Below, one piece after another: positions 2,940 through 58,060 of a stretch of 64,000 nt of DNA. Both the position numbers and the translations under genes were made by a program. Each line of letters begins with the position of its first letter. The stretch's first letter is position 1. Source of the DNA: Paenibacillus fonticola DSM 21315 (GTDB lineage: Bacteria > Bacillota > Bacilli > Paenibacillales > Paenibacillaceae); contig NZ_KB907255.1 in assembly GCF_000381905.1 (NCBI RefSeq), positions 86,638 to 150,637 on the forward strand, in the 5' to 3' direction. The notes beneath the pieces were generated by a model. That model was given only the letters and a program-made list of their open reading frames with translations, was not told the origin of the DNA and searched no databases.

Positions 2940-3386
2940 ATTTCTGCCTCCATCAAGTAGGATGTTATAACATCAAATGAATTCATGATTGATTATGAAT
3001 ACTGAATACAGATCAGTTGCAATAGACTTGTTTCATAACTAAATAACAAACCATGTATTAAAAGTCAATTAGGATCGTTTTATACAAAAAAATAATTATA
3101 GTTAAATTTTCTCTTTTCAAGAAAGAATGAATTATTGTTGCTAGGGTGCTTTTTGCGCCCTGATACAGAGAAACCATATAAGGATCCGCTGGCGCTCTCC
3201 TTGATTTACGTCGTCGAGTTTCGCTTCCATCTTCCTTGATACACTAGTTCTACGCTTTCTGCATCCGGTTATTTTTATCAACCAATAAATCAACCAATAT
3301 AGGAGCACACATGATAGATGCATAGATATAGGTGCATAGAATAGGTGCATAGAGCGACGAATTTCAGCGGTTTTCAGCGGTTAGAT
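2940..3386. other. Gene-free AT-rich stretch
   Basis: No convincing coding region. A 69-codon frame on the minus strand (3141-3350) lacks a ribosome site and a plausible composition. Upstream of the kinase the sequence is AT-rich and may contain its promoter, but no clear -35/-10 pair stands out. Confidence 0.4.
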
Positions 3387-3527
3387 AAATTAGATGGATT
3401 TCATGGATTTAATTCTAGTCCGTAAAGGCGAAATCGCAGATTAACTGCTAATCGTGTATCTAATACGCGCTTCTTCGCTTTGCTAACCTAAAAACTTCAT
3501 TCTAATTACAAGGAATCCAGTTAAATT
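3387..3527. repeat. Interspersed MITE-like element, copy 1
   Basis: The left end AAATTAGATGGATTTC and the reverse complement of the right end AATTTAACTGGATTCC agree at 12 of 16 positions, so the element has imperfect terminal inverted repeats. A diverged second copy with the same ends lies at 33528-33726. There is no coding capacity. The repeat nature is inferred from two copies only. Confidence 0.45.
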
Positions 3528-5000: not shown

Positions 5001-5684
5001 ATGAGTCACATAAAAGGCATAAAAATTTTGCTCGTCGACGATGAGCCCCATATCGTTCAATTTCTGGAGCTCGGGCTGATCAATGAAGGATACGAAGTGC
5101 AGAGCACGCACGATGGTCTTAGCGCCGTTAATCTGGCCGCGGAATTCCAGCCGCATATCGTCGTACTGGACGTGATGATGCCCGGTATGAACGGATGGGA
5201 GGTGTGCCGAATGCTGAAAAAAAACGGCTTGTCTGCCTCCATCATCATGCTGACTGCGAAAGATGAAGTGGAGGACCGGGTCAAGGGGCTGACGATCGGG
5301 GCTGACGACTACATCGTAAAGCCGTTCAGCTTCGAAGAACTGCTTGCCCGCATCGGCGCACGCCTGCGCAACCAGTTCCCGGCGCTGATCGGTGAAGTGG
5401 CGCTCGGCCCATTTCGAGTCAATGACAAGAAGAAGGAAATCATCTTCCAGGGACAAGTGCTGGAGCTATCGCCTACAGAGTACGAATTGCTTAAATATCT
5501 CGTACTTAATCATGGCATCGTGCTTAGCAAGACGACAATTCTGGATAAAGTATGGGGCTACGACTTCGGAGGCGAAGAGAACATCGTCGAGGTGTATATC
5601 CGGTCTCTGCGGGATAAATTGAACGACAAAGAGCATCGCCTCATCCGGACGCTGCGCGGAGCCGGGTACAGGGTCGATATATGA
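5001..5684 (+). CDS. OmpR/PhoB-family response regulator
   Basis: A 227-residue DNA-binding response regulator. The receiver shows the acidic pair in LLVDDEP, the phospho-acceptor Asp57 in VVLDVMMPGMNG, and the conserved lysine in DDYIVKPFS. The winged-helix domain (about residues 130-227) has SPTEYELLKYL, the recognition helix region EENIVEVYIRSLRDKL and the closing RGAGYRVDI. The ATG follows AGAGGAGG at good spacing. Its last codon overlaps the kinase start by 4 nt (ATGA), so the two are translationally coupled and must form a cognate pair. The inducing signal is unknown. Confidence 0.93.
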   Translation: MSHIKGIKILLVDDEPHIVQFLELGLINEGYEVQSTHDGLSAVNLAAEFQPHIVVLDVMMPGMNGWEVCRMLKKNGLSASIIMLTAKDEVEDRVKGLTIGADDYIVKPFSFEELLARIGARLRNQFPALIGEVALGPFRVNDKKKEIIFQGQVLELSPTEYELLKYLVLNHGIVLSKTTILDKVWGYDFGGEENIVEVYIRSLRDKLNDKEHRLIRTLRGAGYRVDI

Positions 5685-7438
5685 GTAGACTTATGGGCAG
5701 GCTTATGAGCAGGCTGAAGCTGCTTCAAAGCCTTCGCAGCCGCATTCGGAACACGGCAGCCCCTCGTTCTCTCCGAATCCAGCTGCTGTCCCGTTCCTTG
5801 CTCGTGCTGGCAGTGCTGTTGCTGCTGATCGGTGTGCTGCAATACGTCATCATGAATGATTTTCTATACCGGAACCAGGCGAAAACGATGACTTCCCAAT
5901 TGCTGGGGCTTCCGAAGGATCTCTTCGGCATCCCTGGCTTCGTTCCCGAGCACTGGAACATTCGCGCGCCAGCGCTAAGCGGGGAGTCCCCCCCTGCCGA
6001 TCCTGCTAGCTCTGCAGGTTCTGCTAACTTTTCCGGTCCTGCTAGCTCTGCAGGTTCTGCTAACTTTTCCGGTCCTGCTAGCTCTGCTGATCCTGCTAGC
6101 TCTACCGGTCCTGCTGGTTCTGCAAGTTCAGCTAGCTCTGCCGATCCTGCTAGCTCTGCTGGTCCCGCTACGGCAAGAGACAATCCAAATAATCCGAGCA
6201 ATCGGCCGGTGCTATTTCTCCCTGACATGTCGATCGCCTATATATCGGCAAGCGGCGAGTTCACCGACTTCACCGGAGCTGAGGGAATGGTATCGCCGCA
6301 ATTGTCCGCCGAGAAATATGCCGCTATTCAGAAGCAATTCGAGCATAGAGTGCATGACGGCTATGAGGTGGTGCAGGATAAGACCGGCCGGGAGCAGCTC
6401 GTCGTCTTCCGCCCGGCCAGAGGGCCCGAAGCCCAACACGGGCTGATCCAGATCGGCAAGGACACTGCCCCGCTGCGGAGCATCATTCTGCGCCAGCTGC
6501 TGACATTCGCTGGTCTGTCTGCGCTGGCCCTGGCCTGCGGCCTGATGCTCTACCTTCCCCTGCTGCGGCGTACGCTGCATCCGCTGAATCGCATGGTTCG
6601 CACCGTCGAGGACATCAATGCCGGCAACCTGAGCATCCGCTTCCCTTCCAGGCAGGGACAGATGGAGATCGACGCCCTCGCCGAGTCGTTCAACGGAATG
6701 CTCGAACGGCTCGAGGTGTCCTTCGAAGGCGAGCGGGAAGCGAAAGAGCAAATGCGCCGTTTCATCGCGGATGCCTCGCATGAGCTGCGGACGCCGCTCA
6801 CCTCCATCCACGGATTTCTGGAGGTGCTGCTGCGCGGTGCCGCAGCGAATCCGGAGCAATTGCAGGCCTCCTTAAACAGCATGCTGGGCGAATCCACGCG
6901 CATGAAGAAGCTCGTCGAGGATTTGCTGCTGCTCGCCAAGCTGGACCGCCAACCCGTGCTGGAGCTGCGGGAAACGCGGCTGGATGCCCTTATTTCCGAG
7001 ATGGAGCCTCATTTGCGGATGCTCGCCAAGCAGCGGGCGGTCCGTTTCGCCCTGACGGGAGGGGTTACGGGTATGTATGATGACAATGCGATCAAACAGG
7101 TCATCCTCAACCTGTTCAGCAACGCGGTGCAGCATACCGATCCCGAGCAAGGCCTTATTACTGTAACGCTAACTGCATCGCGTACGAAGGCCATGCTGTT
7201 GATTCGCGACAACGGCTGCGGCATCCCGCCGGAGCACTTGCCCCACGTATTCGATCGCTTCTACCGCAGCGACTCCTCGCGGACGCGAAGCCATGGAGGC
7301 GCAGGGCTCGGCCTCTCCATCACCCGGTCCATCGTTGAAGCGCATGGCGGCGTTATTCAAGTATCCAGTTCGCCAGACGATGGCGCCACTTTTGAGGTGC
7401 AATTACCGCTGAACACGTACGGCAAACAAAGTAAATAA
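5681..7438 (+). CDS. Membrane sensor histidine kinase with Ala/Ser-rich repeated ectodomain
   Basis: Cognate kinase of the regulator just upstream (4-nt overlap). It is 585 residues long. A first membrane helix lies at about 33-55 and a second at about 268-288, flanking an extracellular loop of about 210 residues. HAMP follows, then HisKA with His367 in ADASHELRTPL, the N box NLFSNAVQHT, the G1 box DNGCGIP and the G2 box GAGLGLSI. The loop contains a low-complexity Ala/Ser/Pro/Gly stretch (about residues 105-165) in which PASSAGSANFSG occurs as two adjacent copies, with looser copies after it. The matching 36-nt DNA repeat is nearly exact, so this looks like a recent slippage expansion inside the sensor domain. 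The rest of the loop resembles a small single sensor domain of unknown ligand. Confidence 0.92.
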   Translation: MSRLMGRLMSRLKLLQSLRSRIRNTAAPRSLRIQLLSRSLLVLAVLLLLIGVLQYVIMNDFLYRNQAKTMTSQLLGLPKDLFGIPGFVPEHWNIRAPALSGESPPADPASSAGSANFSGPASSAGSANFSGPASSADPASSTGPAGSASSASSADPASSAGPATARDNPNNPSNRPVLFLPDMSIAYISASGEFTDFTGAEGMVSPQLSAEKYAAIQKQFEHRVHDGYEVVQDKTGREQLVVFRPARGPEAQHGLIQIGKDTAPLRSIILRQLLTFAGLSALALACGLMLYLPLLRRTLHPLNRMVRTVEDINAGNLSIRFPSRQGQMEIDALAESFNGMLERLEVSFEGEREAKEQMRRFIADASHELRTPLTSIHGFLEVLLRGAAANPEQLQASLNSMLGESTRMKKLVEDLLLLAKLDRQPVLELRETRLDALISEMEPHLRMLAKQRAVRFALTGGVTGMYDDNAIKQVILNLFSNAVQHTDPEQGLITVTLTASRTKAMLLIRDNGCGIPPEHLPHVFDRFYRSDSSRTRSHGGAGLGLSITRSIVEAHGGVIQVSSSPDDGATFEVQLPLNTYGKQSK

Positions 7439-7512: not shown

Positions 7513-8784
7513 CTAGCTATCACTTTCAATAACATACTGTTGAAATTTGCTGTAATCGCTCAGCCTGCACTCCATTACAAGCTTGGTGCCTTCAGCCTCG
7601 TAGCTGGTCGCCTCGATATTCGCATTCTCGTTGAAATGGGAAACGAGCGCCCCTTGATCATACGGAATCAGCATCTCACAGCGGATGTAGTCCTTAAAGA
7701 TCGACTTCCTGATGCACTGCACCAATTCCTCGATACCGATTCGCGGCTTCGCAGCCATATAAATCCGATCCTCCTGTACTTCAGGCACAGGCTGATTGGT
7801 CAGATCGCTCTTGTTGTACGCATATATCGTCGGAATATCGGTTATGCCGATTTCCTTCAGCGTCTCGTTAGTAATCTGAATGAGGCGCTCATATTCCGGG
7901 TTGCTGTAATCGACGACATGGATTAGCAGATCGGCCTCGGCCACTTCCTCCAGCGTGGAGCGGAACGCTTTGACCAGATGATGCGGGAGCTTGCTGACAA
8001 AGCCGACCGTATCCGTGAGCAAAAAAGCTTTGTTGTCCGGCAGCGGAATGTTCCGCACCGAGGTCTCCAGCGTGGCAAACAGCATATCCTTCTCAAAAAC
8101 CAGCTTCTCCGGCGCTTGGTTGTACTGCTCCATCAGCGCATTCATAATCGTTGATTTTCCCGCGTTGGTGTATCCGACCAAAGACACGACAGGCAGTTCC
8201 TTCTTCTTGCGCTGCTTACGCTGGGTTTGGCGATGGGCTACAAGATTCTCGAGCTCTTTGCTCAGCACCGTGATCTTCTCTTCGATCCGCCGGCGATCCA
8301 GCTCGAGCCGCGTCTCCCCTGCCCCGCGGTTCTTCGTACCAACGCCGCCGCTCTGCCGGCCGAGGGACTCCCTCATCCCGACGAGGCGCGGCAGCATATA
8401 CTTCATGTGAGCAACCTCCACCTGAAGCTGAGCCTCTCTCGTCTTGGCCCGCTGGGCAAAAATGTCGAGAATGAGCACCGTCCGGTCGATGACCTTGCAC
8501 TCCAGGTCCGCCTCCAAATTGCGGATTTGCGACGGAGACAGCTCATCGTTGAAAATAACGAGGTTCGCCTCCTGTCCTTCAATCAGCCCGCGGACTTCCC
8601 CGATTTTGCCTGTTCCGATATAATGGGATTTATTCGCCTTGGGCAAATTTTGCGTTAGCATGCCGGCAACTTCAATCTGGCAAGCCTCCGTCAAGTTCGT
8701 CAGCTCTTCCATCGAGTAATCGAAATCCTCCTGATGATTCAGGTTGACGCCTACGAGTATCGCCTTCTGCTGTAGTTGTTCCAT
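7513..8784 (-). CDS. hflX: Ribosome-associated GTPase HflX
   Basis: A 423-residue GTPase of the Obg/HflX class that binds and splits 70S or 100S ribosomes and rescues stalled ones; some paralogues (HflXr in Listeria) give macrolide/lincosamide resistance. Seen here: the N-terminal HflX domain with a glycine-rich segment (SHYIGTGKIGEV), the linker motif GVGTKNRGAGETRLELDRRR, then the G domain with G1 GYTNAGKST, G3 DTVGF and G4 NKSD. The ATG follows GGAGG at 10 nt. A leader of about 340 nt precedes it, containing a promoter, a 13-codon leader peptide and an intrinsic terminator, so expression is very likely controlled by attenuation (see the separate entries). Whether this is the housekeeping HflX or a resistance-type copy cannot be decided without the rest of the genome. 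Confidence 0.95.
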   Translation of the reverse strand: MEQLQQKAILVGVNLNHQEDFDYSMEELTNLTEACQIEVAGMLTQNLPKANKSHYIGTGKIGEVRGLIEGQEANLVIFNDELSPSQIRNLEADLECKVIDRTVLILDIFAQRAKTREAQLQVEVAHMKYMLPRLVGMRESLGRQSGGVGTKNRGAGETRLELDRRRIEEKITVLSKELENLVAHRQTQRKQRKKKELPVVSLVGYTNAGKSTIMNALMEQYNQAPEKLVFEKDMLFATLETSVRNIPLPDNKAFLLTDTVGFVSKLPHHLVKAFRSTLEEVAEADLLIHVVDYSNPEYERLIQITNETLKEIGITDIPTIYAYNKSDLTNQPVPEVQEDRIYMAAKPRIGIEELVQCIRKSIFKDYIRCEMLIPYDQGALVSHFNENANIEATSYEAEGTKLVMECRLSDYSKFQQYVIESDS

Positions 8785-8866
8785 ATACGTATAACCTCCT
8801 TCGGCATCGATGCCGAGTTTCTGGCTTAGCTTACTCTGTGATCATCTGTATGATCAAAAAGTTAAA

Positions 8867-8899
8867 AATGAAAAATAAAAACACAGGCATCCCCTGTGT
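8867..8899 (-). terminator. Leader terminator (attenuator) upstream of hflX
   Basis: A perfect 7-bp stem (ACACAGG / CCTGTGT, 8881-8887 with 8893-8899) is followed on the minus strand by TTTTTATTTTT. It lies about 80 nt before the hflX start and 160 nt after the leader peptide, inside the presumed transcript. A CCTGTG copy further upstream in the leader (9030-9035) could pair with the first stem arm and act as antiterminator; that alternative fold is inference. Confidence 0.75.
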
Positions 8900-9058
8900 C
8901 ATGCAAACAAGACCACCAAGACATCGAGCCTACGGCAAATAGCGCTTACCGTAAGCGACGTCAGGTACGATCGGTATATTCTATTATAAAGATTCCCTTT
9001 ATGATAGCACACCTATCCCGTTTGCCCTGCACAGGCAGAGCCTTTGAGCACTATTCAA

Positions 9059-9100
9059 TTAGCCGCGCAAAGTGGTGAAACGGGATCTAATGTAAATCAT
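9059..9100 (-). CDS. hflX leader peptide (13 residues, Arg-Ser-Arg stall motif)
   Basis: A short reading frame, MIYIRSRFTTLRG, with its own good ribosome site (GGAGGG, 6 nt before the ATG) and a TAA stop. It starts about 28 nt after the predicted transcription start of the hflX leader. Residues 5-7 form an Arg-X-Arg motif, the (+)X(+) type sequence known to stall ribosomes in the presence of macrolides or ketolides. The segment RSRFTTL resembles RLRFPTL of the ErmD leader peptide, as I recall it. A terminator follows before hflX. The small size means the ORF itself is not proof of translation, but promoter, ribosome site, motif and terminator occur in the expected order. Confidence 0.7.
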   Translation of the reverse strand: MIYIRSRFTTLRG

Positions 9101-9133
9101 AGGGAACCCTCCGTTCTTCTCTAAATTGACTCC

Positions 9134-9162
9134 ATTTTAACATAATTTACAATACGGCACAA
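9134..9162 (-). promoter_or_regulatory. Promoter of the hflX leader transcript
   Basis: TTGTGC (9157-9162) and TAAAAT (9134-9139) are separated by exactly 17 nt on the minus strand. The start would be near 9128, giving a 5' leader of about 340 nt upstream of hflX. Confidence 0.65.
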
Positions 9163-9301
9163 ATTACCGCCACCAAGCTGTTTAAAGGATCTCTGTAGTC
9201 AAGCGTGCTTATGTCCAGTTTGGTTACATATGAATATAGAAAACATTATCCGAAACCAATTGCATTTGTATTCCGTTTATATTATGAAGGAGGCTTGCCA
9301 C

Positions 9302-30376: not shown

Positions 30377-31564
30377 TTATTGCATTGCTGGTGTACGTTT
30401 TCTTTTTTGCGGAAAATCGGGCATTTCATTCACGGAGACGATCTCATCGGACTTCTTCTCCGGCTGTTTCCAATACTGCTCATTTCCGGGAAGGTCGTCG
30501 AACCAAGCCGCGTCCTCAGGGCAGTCGAGGATCATTAGTTTCCCGTAATCTCCATCGCGGGACTGGTGGTATTTCAAATAGGCCTTGCCGTTTTCAATCG
30601 CGAGAATTTCAATTTTGCCGGACGTATGGCTCATCGACAGCCTGACTCGTTTACCCAGGCCGGATGTCCGCGCCTTCGCCTCCTCGACGATCCGGTACAC
30701 CTCCTGCAGGGAAAGCACGAAATCCCGGTTTCCGGCTACCGGTCTGTTCACAAAGAAGTAGTACGGCGTAACCCCTGCCCAGGACAGCTTATCCAGAAGT
30801 TCCCCAAGCACCGCCGGGTCATCGTTAATGCCTTTCAGCACCGGGGTCTGATTGACTACGATCGCGCCGGCCTCATGCAGCGCCTGGAAGCCGCGTCTCG
30901 CTTCCGGCGTAATCTCGCGCGGATGGTTAATATGGGCCATAACGTAAATGCGCTGCTCCGGTGTAGAGTAAGTACGGATCACATCGAGCAGTTCCTCGTC
31001 CTCATAAATACGCATCGGGTTGAAAACGGGGATTTTCGAGCCGAGACGGATGATTTTTACGTGCTCGATTTCACGCAGTTGGGCAAGAATTCCCCGCAGC
31101 TTCTCTGTAGCCAGTATGAGACTGTCCCCGCCAGTCAACAGAACGTTGTTGATTTCGGGATGCTTGGCGATATAGTCGATCCCTGGCTGCACGTCGGACA
31201 TAGCCTCCTTCACGTCATTGCGGAACAGGCGTTTGCGGAAGCAATAGCGGCAGTAAGCCCCGCATACCTCCGAGACGATCAGCAGGGCGGTCGTCGTATA
31301 TTTGTGCTGACATCCGGGCACGACGTAGTTGGTATCCTCGTCAGAAGCATCCCAGCGGCCGTACTCCTCAAGCTCCCCCTCATTCGGAATGACCAGTTTG
31401 CGAATCGGATCCTGGGGATCATTCCAGTCGATCAAATTTAAGTAATAATCGTTAACCCGAAATACGAATTTCTCCGTAATCGGTTTCAAACGCGCCCGCT
31501 CCTCTTCCGGAATCATCGTCAGTCTATCCAGATTTGTAATATACCTCGTTTTCGTCTTTGTCAT
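30377..31564 (-). CDS. kamA: Lysine 2,3-aminomutase (radical SAM, PLP)
   Basis: Converts L-alpha-lysine to L-beta-lysine using S-adenosylmethionine, a 4Fe-4S cluster and pyridoxal phosphate. 395 residues. The cluster motif is CGAYCRYC (Cys101, Cys105, Cys108); the glycine-rich SAM site GGDSL follows, and the PLP lysine probably lies in SHTSGKIEIL. In methanogens and some bacilli beta-lysine is acetylated by AblB to the osmolyte N-epsilon-acetyl-beta-lysine; no AblB gene is present next to it here. The leader carries a c-di-AMP riboswitch, which fits osmotic control. The ATG follows AAGGAG. A related 2,3-aminomutase specificity (for example glutamate) is possible but less likely. Confidence 0.9.
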   Translation of the reverse strand: MTKTKTRYITNLDRLTMIPEEERARLKPITEKFVFRVNDYYLNLIDWNDPQDPIRKLVIPNEGELEEYGRWDASDEDTNYVVPGCQHKYTTTALLIVSEVCGAYCRYCFRKRLFRNDVKEAMSDVQPGIDYIAKHPEINNVLLTGGDSLILATEKLRGILAQLREIEHVKIIRLGSKIPVFNPMRIYEDEELLDVIRTYSTPEQRIYVMAHINHPREITPEARRGFQALHEAGAIVVNQTPVLKGINDDPAVLGELLDKLSWAGVTPYYFFVNRPVAGNRDFVLSLQEVYRIVEEAKARTSGLGKRVRLSMSHTSGKIEILAIENGKAYLKYHQSRDGDYGKLMILDCPEDAAWFDDLPGNEQYWKQPEKKSDEIVSVNEMPDFPQKRKRTPAMQ

Positions 31565-31689: not shown

Positions 31690-31838
31690 AATGATCTTAT
31701 AACAGACCCATCCACTGCTGACGAGGTTAGCTGACGGACTCGGGTAAGATGGTACCCTACACCTCATAGGAATGAGTGATTCGCCCCAAAATGAAACTGG
31801 TTCCCCCGCTTTCTTGGCTCCTACCAAGAAACTAAGCG
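31690..31838 (-). ncRNA. ydaO/yuaA-type c-di-AMP riboswitch
   Basis: The leader contains the hallmark CCGAGTCCGTCAGCTAACCT (minus strand, about 31742-31723) together with GCGGGGGAACC, GGGGCGAATC and GGTGTAGGG in the order of the ydaO class. The aptamer begins within a few bases of the predicted transcription start. The ydaO riboswitch binds c-di-AMP, and binding normally promotes termination. Two terminators follow before kamA. The exact boundaries are approximate. Confidence 0.9.
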
Positions 31839-31845
31839 TGTGTTA

Positions 31846-31874
31846 ATGATACGGTGTATCCCCGAATTTGTCAA
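31846..31874 (-). promoter_or_regulatory. Promoter of the kamA riboswitch transcript
   Basis: A consensus TTGACA (31869-31874) is followed after exactly 17 nt by TATCAT (31846-31851) on the minus strand. The start would fall near 31839, immediately before the aptamer. Confidence 0.8.
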
Positions 31875-56099: not shown

Positions 56100-56420
56100 C
56101 ACTCACTTAGCAGCCAGATGCAAGGATTGTGTATGAAATATCATACATAATCCTCGTGTAGCTGCCTAATGCAGGGAATGTATATGAATTATCATACATA
56201 ATCCTCGTGAAGCTGCCTAATGCAGGGAATGTATATGAATTATCATACATAATCCTCGTGCAGCTGCCTAATGCAGGGAATGTATATGAATTATCATACA
56301 TAATCTCCCGTGTAGCTGCCTAATGCAGGGAATGTATATGAAATATCATACATAATCTCCCGTGTAGCTGCCTAATGCAGAGAATGTATATGAAATATCA
56401 TCTACATTCCTACCATAGCT
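56100..56420 (+). repeat. 51-53 bp tandem repeat, about six copies
   Basis: Each unit contains AGCTGCCTAATGCAGGGAAT followed by GTATATGAATTATCATACAT, an imperfect hairpin, and an ATAATC(T)CC(C)GT tail. The central four copies are almost identical. There are no unique spacers, so it is not a CRISPR array. A minus-strand ORF across the array is a repeat artefact. Confidence 0.92.
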
Positions 56421-56599: not shown

Positions 56600-56860
56600 T
56601 CACAGCAAATTACCTACTCGTGATAACTTACGTGATAACTTATCTACCTACGTAACAACTTATCTACCTACGTGATAACTTATCTACCTACGTGATAACT
56701 TATCTACCTACGTAACAACTTATCTACTTACGTGATAACTTATCTACCTACGTAGCAACTTATCTACCTGCGTGACTACTTATCTACCTACGTAGCAACT
56801 TATCTACCTGCGTGACTACTTATCTACCTAAGTAACAAATTACCTGTCTACATAACAAAT
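56600..56860 (+). repeat. 20-bp tandem repeat, about twelve copies
   Basis: The unit AACTTATCTACCTACGTGAT, with variants GTAAC, GTAGC and GTGACT in the last positions, is repeated head to tail. Some variant pairs recur in order, pointing to duplication of higher-order units. No spacers and no gene. Confidence 0.92.
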
Positions 56861-56982
56861 TACTCAAACCCGAAAGTTGCTGCATCGGCATCTGCTTTAT
56901 TACACGGCGAAACTTCGTCAAGCCATTCATCTTCTCAGCTTCTAACCAACAATACACCTAGGTTCAAGCTACTTTTTCCTCC

Positions 56983-58060
56983 GGTCGAGTAGACATGAGC
57001 CTCACGGCTCATGCCCCTCATAGATCCGTACGTGCCCAATTAAGGCATACGGCTCCTCATAACATCGTTTACAGAATTGCAATGATTAGCCATAGATACT
57101 CACATAGATTTTGGGCTCAGGTAAAGGGTTACGTTTCAGAAAGAGGTTAAATTGGTCATACGTAAAGCTTCTTTTCTGGCTTCTGCGATTCAACCATTTA
57201 AATAATGCTTTGGTAATCTGAAATTTGTATACGGACAGCCCCCGGCTATTGTCGGTTATCCCATAATAGCGGTAATGTCCGATCAGCTTGGCCCGTATAG
57301 TTTTCATTAATTCCTTTACATCTTGATGGCGTTCTGCTTTCAGCCATTCTTTGAATGCTTTCACTTTTGCCTTGGACTTCTTTCCGCTTGTTTTCCTCTT
57401 TATTCTAAATTTACCCTTGCTGCTTTTGCTGCAATAGTCACCTGTTGCTTTGCTGCCATCCAGTTCCTGGTGGCATTGTGTCAGTAGTTCCTCGTTCATG
57501 AGGTGATACAGCGATGTGAATTGCTCTTTTGGCTTTTCTCTTGCAATCTCTGCTATTCTTGCTAGTTTTGTTTGCATTTTCGCCCTACCCCTGTGTGTAG
57601 AAAATGTGTCTCTATCAAGAGTGATGATATGTCACTGCCTTTCCTCTACCGACGTTACTCGGTTTCATCGGTACTACGCAGTGTTCCGACTCCCTGTTCA
57701 TCATTTGACATCCTCCCTTATGATCAGTTGTTTGTCATACTTCTTTCAGAAGAATAGGCAGGGCCTCCCAAGTTGCTGTAAAGTCATTGTATAGCATGCC
57801 TGGCTCTACGACCCCGGGAGAGCTCATTCATCCTCGCCCTTGACGCATGAATGAGTGTTGTCTTCCGTACTTTCGAAAACGTCGACCTCTCCGTTTTGCT
57901 CTTTTCGTGGCTCAATCACTTTCAGGCCTGCTACCTGACTGTCTACGCTTAACGTCTAGAATTACTTCCAGCCGTCCAAGACTCGCTATTGGTGGCTTGG
58001 CTTTGCCTTTCCAAGCAGGATTTCCACCTGCTAAACTTCACAACCTACGCTTGGTCGCAC
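56983..58060 (-). mobile_element. Deletion derivative of a group II intron
   Basis: The intron lies on the minus strand. Its 5' end is GTGCGACC (58053-58060), the group II start consensus. The 3' part has domain V (57023-57054: GAGCCGTATGCC ... GGGCACGTACGGATC, with the AGC triad region) and domain VI (56994-57013: a perfect CATGAGCC / GGCTCATG hairpin), ending near TCGACC. The total of about 1.08 kb is roughly half of a normal element because most of the reverse transcriptase is missing. It sits 65 bp downstream of the alcohol dehydrogenase stop codon. Boundaries are good to a few bases at the 5' end and approximate at the 3' end. Confidence 0.85.
57086..57577 (-). pseudogene. Group II intron reverse transcriptase/maturase, internally deleted
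   Basis: The frame joins the true N-terminus of an LtrA-type protein (MQTKLARIAEIAREKPKEQF ... ELDGSKATG, about 46 residues) directly to the maturase and C-terminal part (KAFKEWLKAERHQDVKELMK ... LIGHYRYYGITDNSRGLSVY ... KRNPLPEPKI). The reverse-transcriptase fingers and palm with the YADD site are absent. The full protein is usually above 400 residues; 163 remain. The deletion kept the frame. The product cannot reverse-transcribe, but a maturase-like remnant might still be made. Confidence 0.88.

Follow-up and report, generated by a model that had tools for sequence, protein, structure and literature searches.

The stretch analysed here, hereafter the window, comprises 64,000 nucleotides of Paenibacillus fonticola DSM 21315 (contig NZ_KB907255.1, positions 86,638 to 150,637), and the element under study is the leader preceding an hflX gene on its minus strand. 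It is very likely that this leader is a ribosome-mediated transcription attenuator, making the gene, hflXr, inducible by a macrolide or ketolide and perhaps by a lincosamide. It is also probable, with somewhat lower confidence, that the hflXr leader represents a branch of one homologous, exchangeable antibiotic-sensing RNA module, occurring in Bacilli and a few genomes outside that class and placed in front of no fewer than nine unrelated resistance gene types; the leader type and the peptide would set the pairing of drug and gene. The analysis itself shows the anatomy of the locus, the orthology of the gene, the conservation of the leader, covariation in the OFF stems, the switching of the window leader predicted by model folding, and the company of downstream genes.

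A preliminary description of the locus had placed a promoter, a GGAGGG ribosome site, a 13-codon upstream open reading frame (uORF), an intrinsic terminator and hflX on the minus strand, and all of them were found in those places (Table 1). The GGAGGG motif lies 6 nucleotides 5′ of the ATG of the uORF (9100), and the extended −10 is a good one, an element of the TGnTAnnnT type being found again in the leaders of many relatives. The TTGTGC/TAAAAT site was not among the hits of a simple promoter scan, which did not rise above shuffled sequences, and the terminator scan alone was at the level of chance (4 found, 3.9 expected). For this last reason, the support for the leader is comparative. A genome-wide search for CCTGTG returned 1600 matches and was uninformative.

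Table 1. Elements of the hflXr leader and the gene that it precedes, in window coordinates
Feature	Position	Strand	Description
Probable promoter	9134..9162	-	TTGTGC (9162-9157), 17-nucleotide spacer, TAAAAT (9139-9134) within an extended −10 element TGTTAAAAT (9142-9134)
uORF ribosome site	9101..9113	-	CGGAGGGTTCCCT; doubles as the base of the OFF hairpin
Leader peptide uORF	9059..9100	-	13 codons, MIYIRSRFTTLRG and stop; +X+ stall motif R5-S6-R7
Anti-antiterminator arm	9078..9086	-	ATCCCGTTT, uORF codons 5-8; OFF partner is 9023-9015
Stem-loop	9042..9072	-	CTTTG...CAAAG, spanning the last part of the uORF, stop included
Stem-loop	9024..9041	-	GCTCTGC-CTGT-GCAGGGC; carries CCTGTG (9035-9030), antiterminator helix 1
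Shared switch segment	9015..9023	-	AAACGGGAT; OFF partner is the uORF; ON, as GCAAACGG (9025-9018), partner is 8910-8903
ON-state hairpin	8973..9013	-	GGTGTGCTAT...ATAGAATATACC; cannot coexist with the OFF hairpin's 3′ arm
Antiterminator partner	8903..8910	-	TTGTTTGC, pairs with GCAAACGG
Intrinsic terminator	8870..8900	-	GACACAGG-GGATG-CCTGTGTT (8900-8880) and T run TTTATTTTTC (8879-8870); the 5′ arm also pairs with CCTGTG
hflXr	7513..8784	-	423 amino acids, HflX GTPase of the HflXr clade

In the proposed OFF state, ribosomes would complete the uORF, the uORF arm would refold with 9023-8991, hiding AAACGG, and the terminator would form and end transcription. In the ON state, a drug-bound ribosome would stall at R5-S6-R7, its P site holding S6 and its A site R7 by analogy with ErmDL, and would cover ATCCCGTTT. 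AAACGG and CCTGTG would be freed to pair with TTGTTTGC and CACAGG; because of this pairing the terminator could not form, and hflXr would be transcribed. The HflXr protein would then split and recycle the stalled ribosomes. We infer in this way the translation of the uORF, the transcription of the locus, the stalling at R5-S6-R7, the identity of the drug and the induction of hflXr.

Covariation in the OFF structure is strong. In the consensus structure derived from an alignment of 20 leader sequences, 7 pairs are compensated. Across 101 leaders, changes on both sides were found in 31 of 32 pairs, with 435 double-change cells compared to 144 in shuffles, and 89.9% of the cells were paired, against 75.7% in shuffled alignments and 38-53% when the partners were slid; this alignment was fitted to the OFF structure model, which favours that structure. 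The full leader folds at −96 kcal/mol compared to −71 kcal/mol in shuffles (z −5.1, with none of 200 shuffles as good), largely owing to a single long arm, made up of the uORF together with its ribosome site, that pairs with 9023-8991.

For the ON structure, CCTGTG (9035-9030) is complementary to CACAGG (8898-8893) in the 5′ arm of the terminator, and the helices AAACGG:TTGTTTGC and CCTGTG:CACAGG are nested and mutually exclusive with the terminator. Co-changes were found in both helices: in one leader (L048) CCTGTG has become CCCGTG alongside a change of CACAGG to CACGGG, and in another (L049) GCAAACG/CGTTTGC has become GgGAACG/CGTTCaCC, that is, GGGAACG with CGTTCACC. Within the family, leaders with AATCGGG have a CCCGATT-like uORF sequence and often CGATTAC before the terminator, and the others have AAACGGG, CCCGTTT and CGTTTAC. 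The switch segment fits its own uORF (p 2e-11) and its own downstream partner (p 4e-7) better than those of leaders of another type, in a comparison uncorrected for relatedness. Nearly all of 30 leaders keep the pairs of the ON hairpin (9013-8973), compensatory changes being mostly absent; it is nearly invariant and therefore shows little covariation. The preliminary description had seen the terminator and the pairing of CCTGTG with it, which is indeed an antiterminator helix. It had missed the main switch segment AAACGG, which pairs with the stall codons in the OFF state and with TTGTTTGC in the ON state, and had overlooked both the long OFF hairpin, in which the entire uORF lies together with its ribosome site, and the antiterminator's larger half.

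The leader was found in all 35 Paenibacillus genomes carrying hflXr. Among the five genomes of the genus that lack this gene, four had no match and one had a weak match preceding a macrolide esterase gene, so an hflXr-type leader was present in none of the five. Since the leader accompanies hflXr in 35 of 35 genomes and its fold is better than that of shuffles, it is more than a product of chance. The peptide is intact, with its [KR]xR motif, in 29 of the 30 hflXr leaders read in the genus, and conforms to the type MxxIKFRFTTLRG. The KFR version is the commonest in the genus; RSR is the version of the window and of some of its nearest relatives, and the deepest branch has RLR (MWNMYRLRFFSLCR). 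Comparison across hflX relatives thus bore out what the preliminary description had proposed to look for, namely the conservation of the peptide (R/K-x-R-F), of the terminator and of both alternative pairings.

The exception among the 30 leaders belongs to Paenibacillus ihumii (L010 / L027), where a one-base deletion shifts the frame of the uORF and the stall motif is lost, the RNA arms being kept. This deletion is either real, and then a natural test case, or an error of sequencing. A second conserved open reading frame, beginning MQGKRDRCAMIKG just past the hairpin, was considered and rejected: the conservation there is that of the OFF hairpin's 3′ arm, and the ends of the frame are variable.

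Two hflX genes are present in the genome, 48% identical to each other. The HflX of the window matched the PDB chain 8a57_D with 482 bits, the next HflX reaching 277 bits; we take this chain to be the Listeria HflXr, its PDB label reading just "GTPase HflX". In the phylogenetic tree, which was built by a quick method and has long branches, the window HflX and 8a57_D share a clade with SH-aLRT support of 100, and the second copy (L190) belongs to the other clade. All leader-bearing hflX genes fall within the HflXr clade, which also includes members that lack a leader or were unexamined. According to this placement, the window gene is HflXr, an accessory paralogue rather than the housekeeping HflX, and the likeness to Listeria HflXr, which had been suggested earlier, is borne out by phylogeny.

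The predicted effect of a stalled ribosome was modelled by equilibrium folding in ViennaRNA with a ribosome footprint of 31 nucleotides masked. In the window leader, the probability of the terminator was 0.97 when free, 0.00 when codon 6 was in the P site and 0.95 for codon 13. The leader flips only with the P site at codons 3-11; with the ribosome at the start or at the end of the uORF, the terminator persists. Without a ribosome, the terminator was favoured in all 34 hflXr leaders. Across the family the results were mixed, with switching in none of the 14 ABC-F leaders, 6 of 15 mph leaders and 5 of 19 erm leaders, and for this reason the folding is taken as support for the window and not as proof for the family. 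It is supportive, the covariation being the stronger evidence.

Several points weigh against the attenuator. The −35 box is weak, as the hexamer TTGTGC matches at three positions of six, and the promoter is a probable one, predicted from sequence. The whole case for this organism is built on sequence and models. The RSR form of the motif is rare, accounting for 2 of the 91 motifs in the family set. A stalled ribosome favoured the antiterminator in only 19 of the 34 hflXr leaders under equilibrium folding, and 4 of 120 shuffles of the window spacer switched as cleanly as the real leader.

The evidence for a wider family was obtained with a covariance model built solely from 20 Paenibacillus hflXr leaders and run on whole genomes. 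It matched in 36 of 40 genomes of the genus, in 80 of 349 genomes of Bacilli, which represent 39 of 134 genera, and in 5 genomes outside Bacilli when 249 genomes were sampled across the phylum; the samples contained no Listeria genome, as judged by an HflXr-based search. The downstream gene on the same strand was recorded for 111 loci and comprised mph (25), hflXr (23), erm (23), ABC-F of the Msr type (17), a TlrB-like methyltransferase (12), mef (3), lmrB (3), a macrolide esterase (3), a tet-like pump (1) and an SDR (1). Thus, 110 of the 111 loci precede one of nine kinds of resistance gene. Each gene family was named from the NCBIfam match of a single example. Fragments or poorly placed sequences underlie three of the erm calls (L113, L131 and L138) and the esterase call at L128, and at two loci (L150 and L151) the downstream gene is more than 1 kb from the leader. 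The five loci outside Bacilli precede ABC-F (2), mef (2) and mph (1). Eight arbitrary stretches of the P. fonticola genome, a small control, contained no such resistance gene.

A peptide with R/K-x-R/K, mostly RLR, was found in 91 of the 111 leaders. Leaders preceding different genes are up to 90% identical (erm/tlrB 0.897, mef/tlrB 0.891, mph/tlrB 0.890 and erm/mph 0.889), which fits leader exchange or duplication and not convergence. The leader tree has few supported forks, and therefore no number of transfers is claimed. The only other match of the model in this genome (L110, G000:C1:390595-390718) has the peptide MLIYSRLRKQCN and precedes an mph-like macrolide phosphotransferase gene; here masking takes the terminator from 0.96 to 0.02. 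No description of one homologous RNA common to these genes was found in the literature, which is weak evidence of novelty, many subscription journals being outside the search.

Variants of the leader were also noticed. In one locus (L126), tandem copies of the leader (3368-3481 and 3112-3233, minus strand) lie upstream of erm and resemble tandem riboswitches; another locus (L129) is similar. Some leaders keep the RNA without an R/K-x-R/K peptide (e.g., MANQIPVFALIK), two of them preceding a macrolide esterase (L127 and L179) and four preceding mph (L146, L158, L169 and L171); these perhaps use another stall sequence and respond to another drug. In some erm, tlrB-like and ABC-F leaders (L111, L095 and L104), two successive terminator-like hairpins lie between the leader and the gene.

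The gene partners bear on the reading that the leader senses general translation stress rather than antibiotics, either heat or an amino-acid shortage felt at the arginine codons, with HflX performing ordinary ribosome repair. HflX is a heat-stress factor in other bacteria, and three of the 13 codons of the uORF are arginine codons. However, the same RNA precedes dedicated macrolide and lincosamide resistance genes, the conserved feature is R/K-x-R, with lysine substituting for arginine, and the other hflX copy of the genome has no leader, the two model matches being the only ones in the whole genome; this explanation is quite improbable. It is very improbable that control is mainly translational, the ribosome site of hflX being hidden and the hairpin with its T run incidental. 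A mixture of transcription and translation attenuation does operate in the B. subtilis tlrB leader (PMC6851288), but the conserved downstream element of the present family is a T-tailed hairpin, which in the window ends about 70 nucleotides before the ribosome site of hflX (8799), and no pairing that hides this site was seen, though the stretch 8870-8780 was not folded for it. That the uORF is untranslated and the RNA binds a ligand directly, like a riboswitch, is scarcely credible: nucleotide conservation is very high, outside the peptide too, but the peptide, ribosome site and start codon are kept though the coding nucleotides vary (KFRF, RSRF, RLRF), and the response in Listeria requires drug-sensitive ribosomes and the start codon of the uORF (PMC6310831). 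No Rfam family, riboswitches included, matched within 8780-9200.

If the attenuator operates as proposed, intrinsic ribosome rescue in environmental Paenibacillus would be drug-inducible. The RNA model needs no protein query to find similarly switched resistance genes; in this genome it points to an mph and to hflXr. If the sensor RNA is indeed shared, inducible macrolide resistance could evolve through the attachment of a single leader to a variety of genes. The peptides that occur naturally (RLR, KFR, RFR, RSR, others lacking +X+) would then offer ready material for matching each sequence to the drug that it senses.

Other features of the window include a c-di-AMP riboswitch of the ydaO type (31701-31848, minus strand) upstream of an open reading frame (30377-31564) resembling lysine 2,3-aminomutase, an unexpected partner. 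At 57086-58024 on the minus strand, a group II intron RNA (57802-58024) is accompanied by a short open reading frame (57086-57577) resembling the end of an intron-encoded reverse transcriptase; this intron is probably degraded. Tandem repeats lie near the intron fragment at 56118-56401 (51-bp, 5.5 copies) and 56629-56862 (20-bp, 11.7 copies). An 18/36/72-bp tandem repeat (5994-6170) is present in a sensor kinase gene (5681-7438), where it encodes a Ser/Ala/Pro-rich repeat in the N-terminal, probably extracellular, part.

Systems of this type are already known from Listeria rli80-hflXr and the uORFC-6-1 motif; the breadth of gene partners was not found described. In Listeria monocytogenes, control of hflXr by a uORF attenuator has been shown by experiment; the gene responds to antibiotics and gives protection from lincomycin and erythromycin (Duval et al. 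2018, PMC6310831). The rli80-hflXr locus likewise has an HflXr paralogue, a short R-x-R uORF and a second hflX elsewhere. Its arrangement of an anti-antiterminator in the uORF region, an antiterminator and a terminator, the latter two mutually exclusive, is also that of the window leader, as indicated by sequence, covariation and model folding. The Listeria peptide contains RLR, unlike the RSR and KFR types of Paenibacillus, and the leaders are likened by architecture and not by RNA homology. The motif uORFC-6-1, which was reported from Bacillales, precedes hflX and encodes an Arg-Leu-Arg peptide, and for which a mechanism by stalling was suggested (RNA Biol 2021, PMC8632094), is similar in being a structured uORF RNA before hflX with an Arg-x-Arg peptide and a covarying structure downstream of the uORF start. 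It differs in being described as mainly hflX-linked, and its text gives no ON-state pairing; compared by description, the window has RSR and its relatives KFR or RLR. The window leader may well be among the 51 examples of uORFC-6-1.

The leader peptides of Bacillus methyltransferase genes form the other group for comparison. On ErmDL, stalling takes place at RLR while Leu7 occupies the P site and Arg8 the A site, +X+ being a stall site for ketolides and macrolides (PMC8298421). ErmK is under transcription attenuation, to judge from the title of a 1991 paper by Kwak et al. that PMC6333372 cites. The ErmD and ErmK leaders share with the window the +X+ motif followed by F-x-T-L (RLRFPTL in ErmDL, RSRFTTL in the window) and differ in that the controlled gene is a methyltransferase. 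The likeness to ErmD, which had been pointed out before, is upheld by this RxRFxTL pattern and by the fact that the hflXr RNA model also matches leaders with ErmDL-like peptides, MTHSMKLRFPTLNQ (L147) and MTHSMRLRFPTLNC (L232). The leader of B. subtilis tlrB (yxjB) has an RYR stall motif (PMC6851288), and is alike in that motif, its terminator and the kind of methyltransferase that lies downstream of 12 leaders of the family; it is unlike them in its nine-residue peptide with a C-terminal motif, its hairpin sequestering the ribosome site and its NusG pause.
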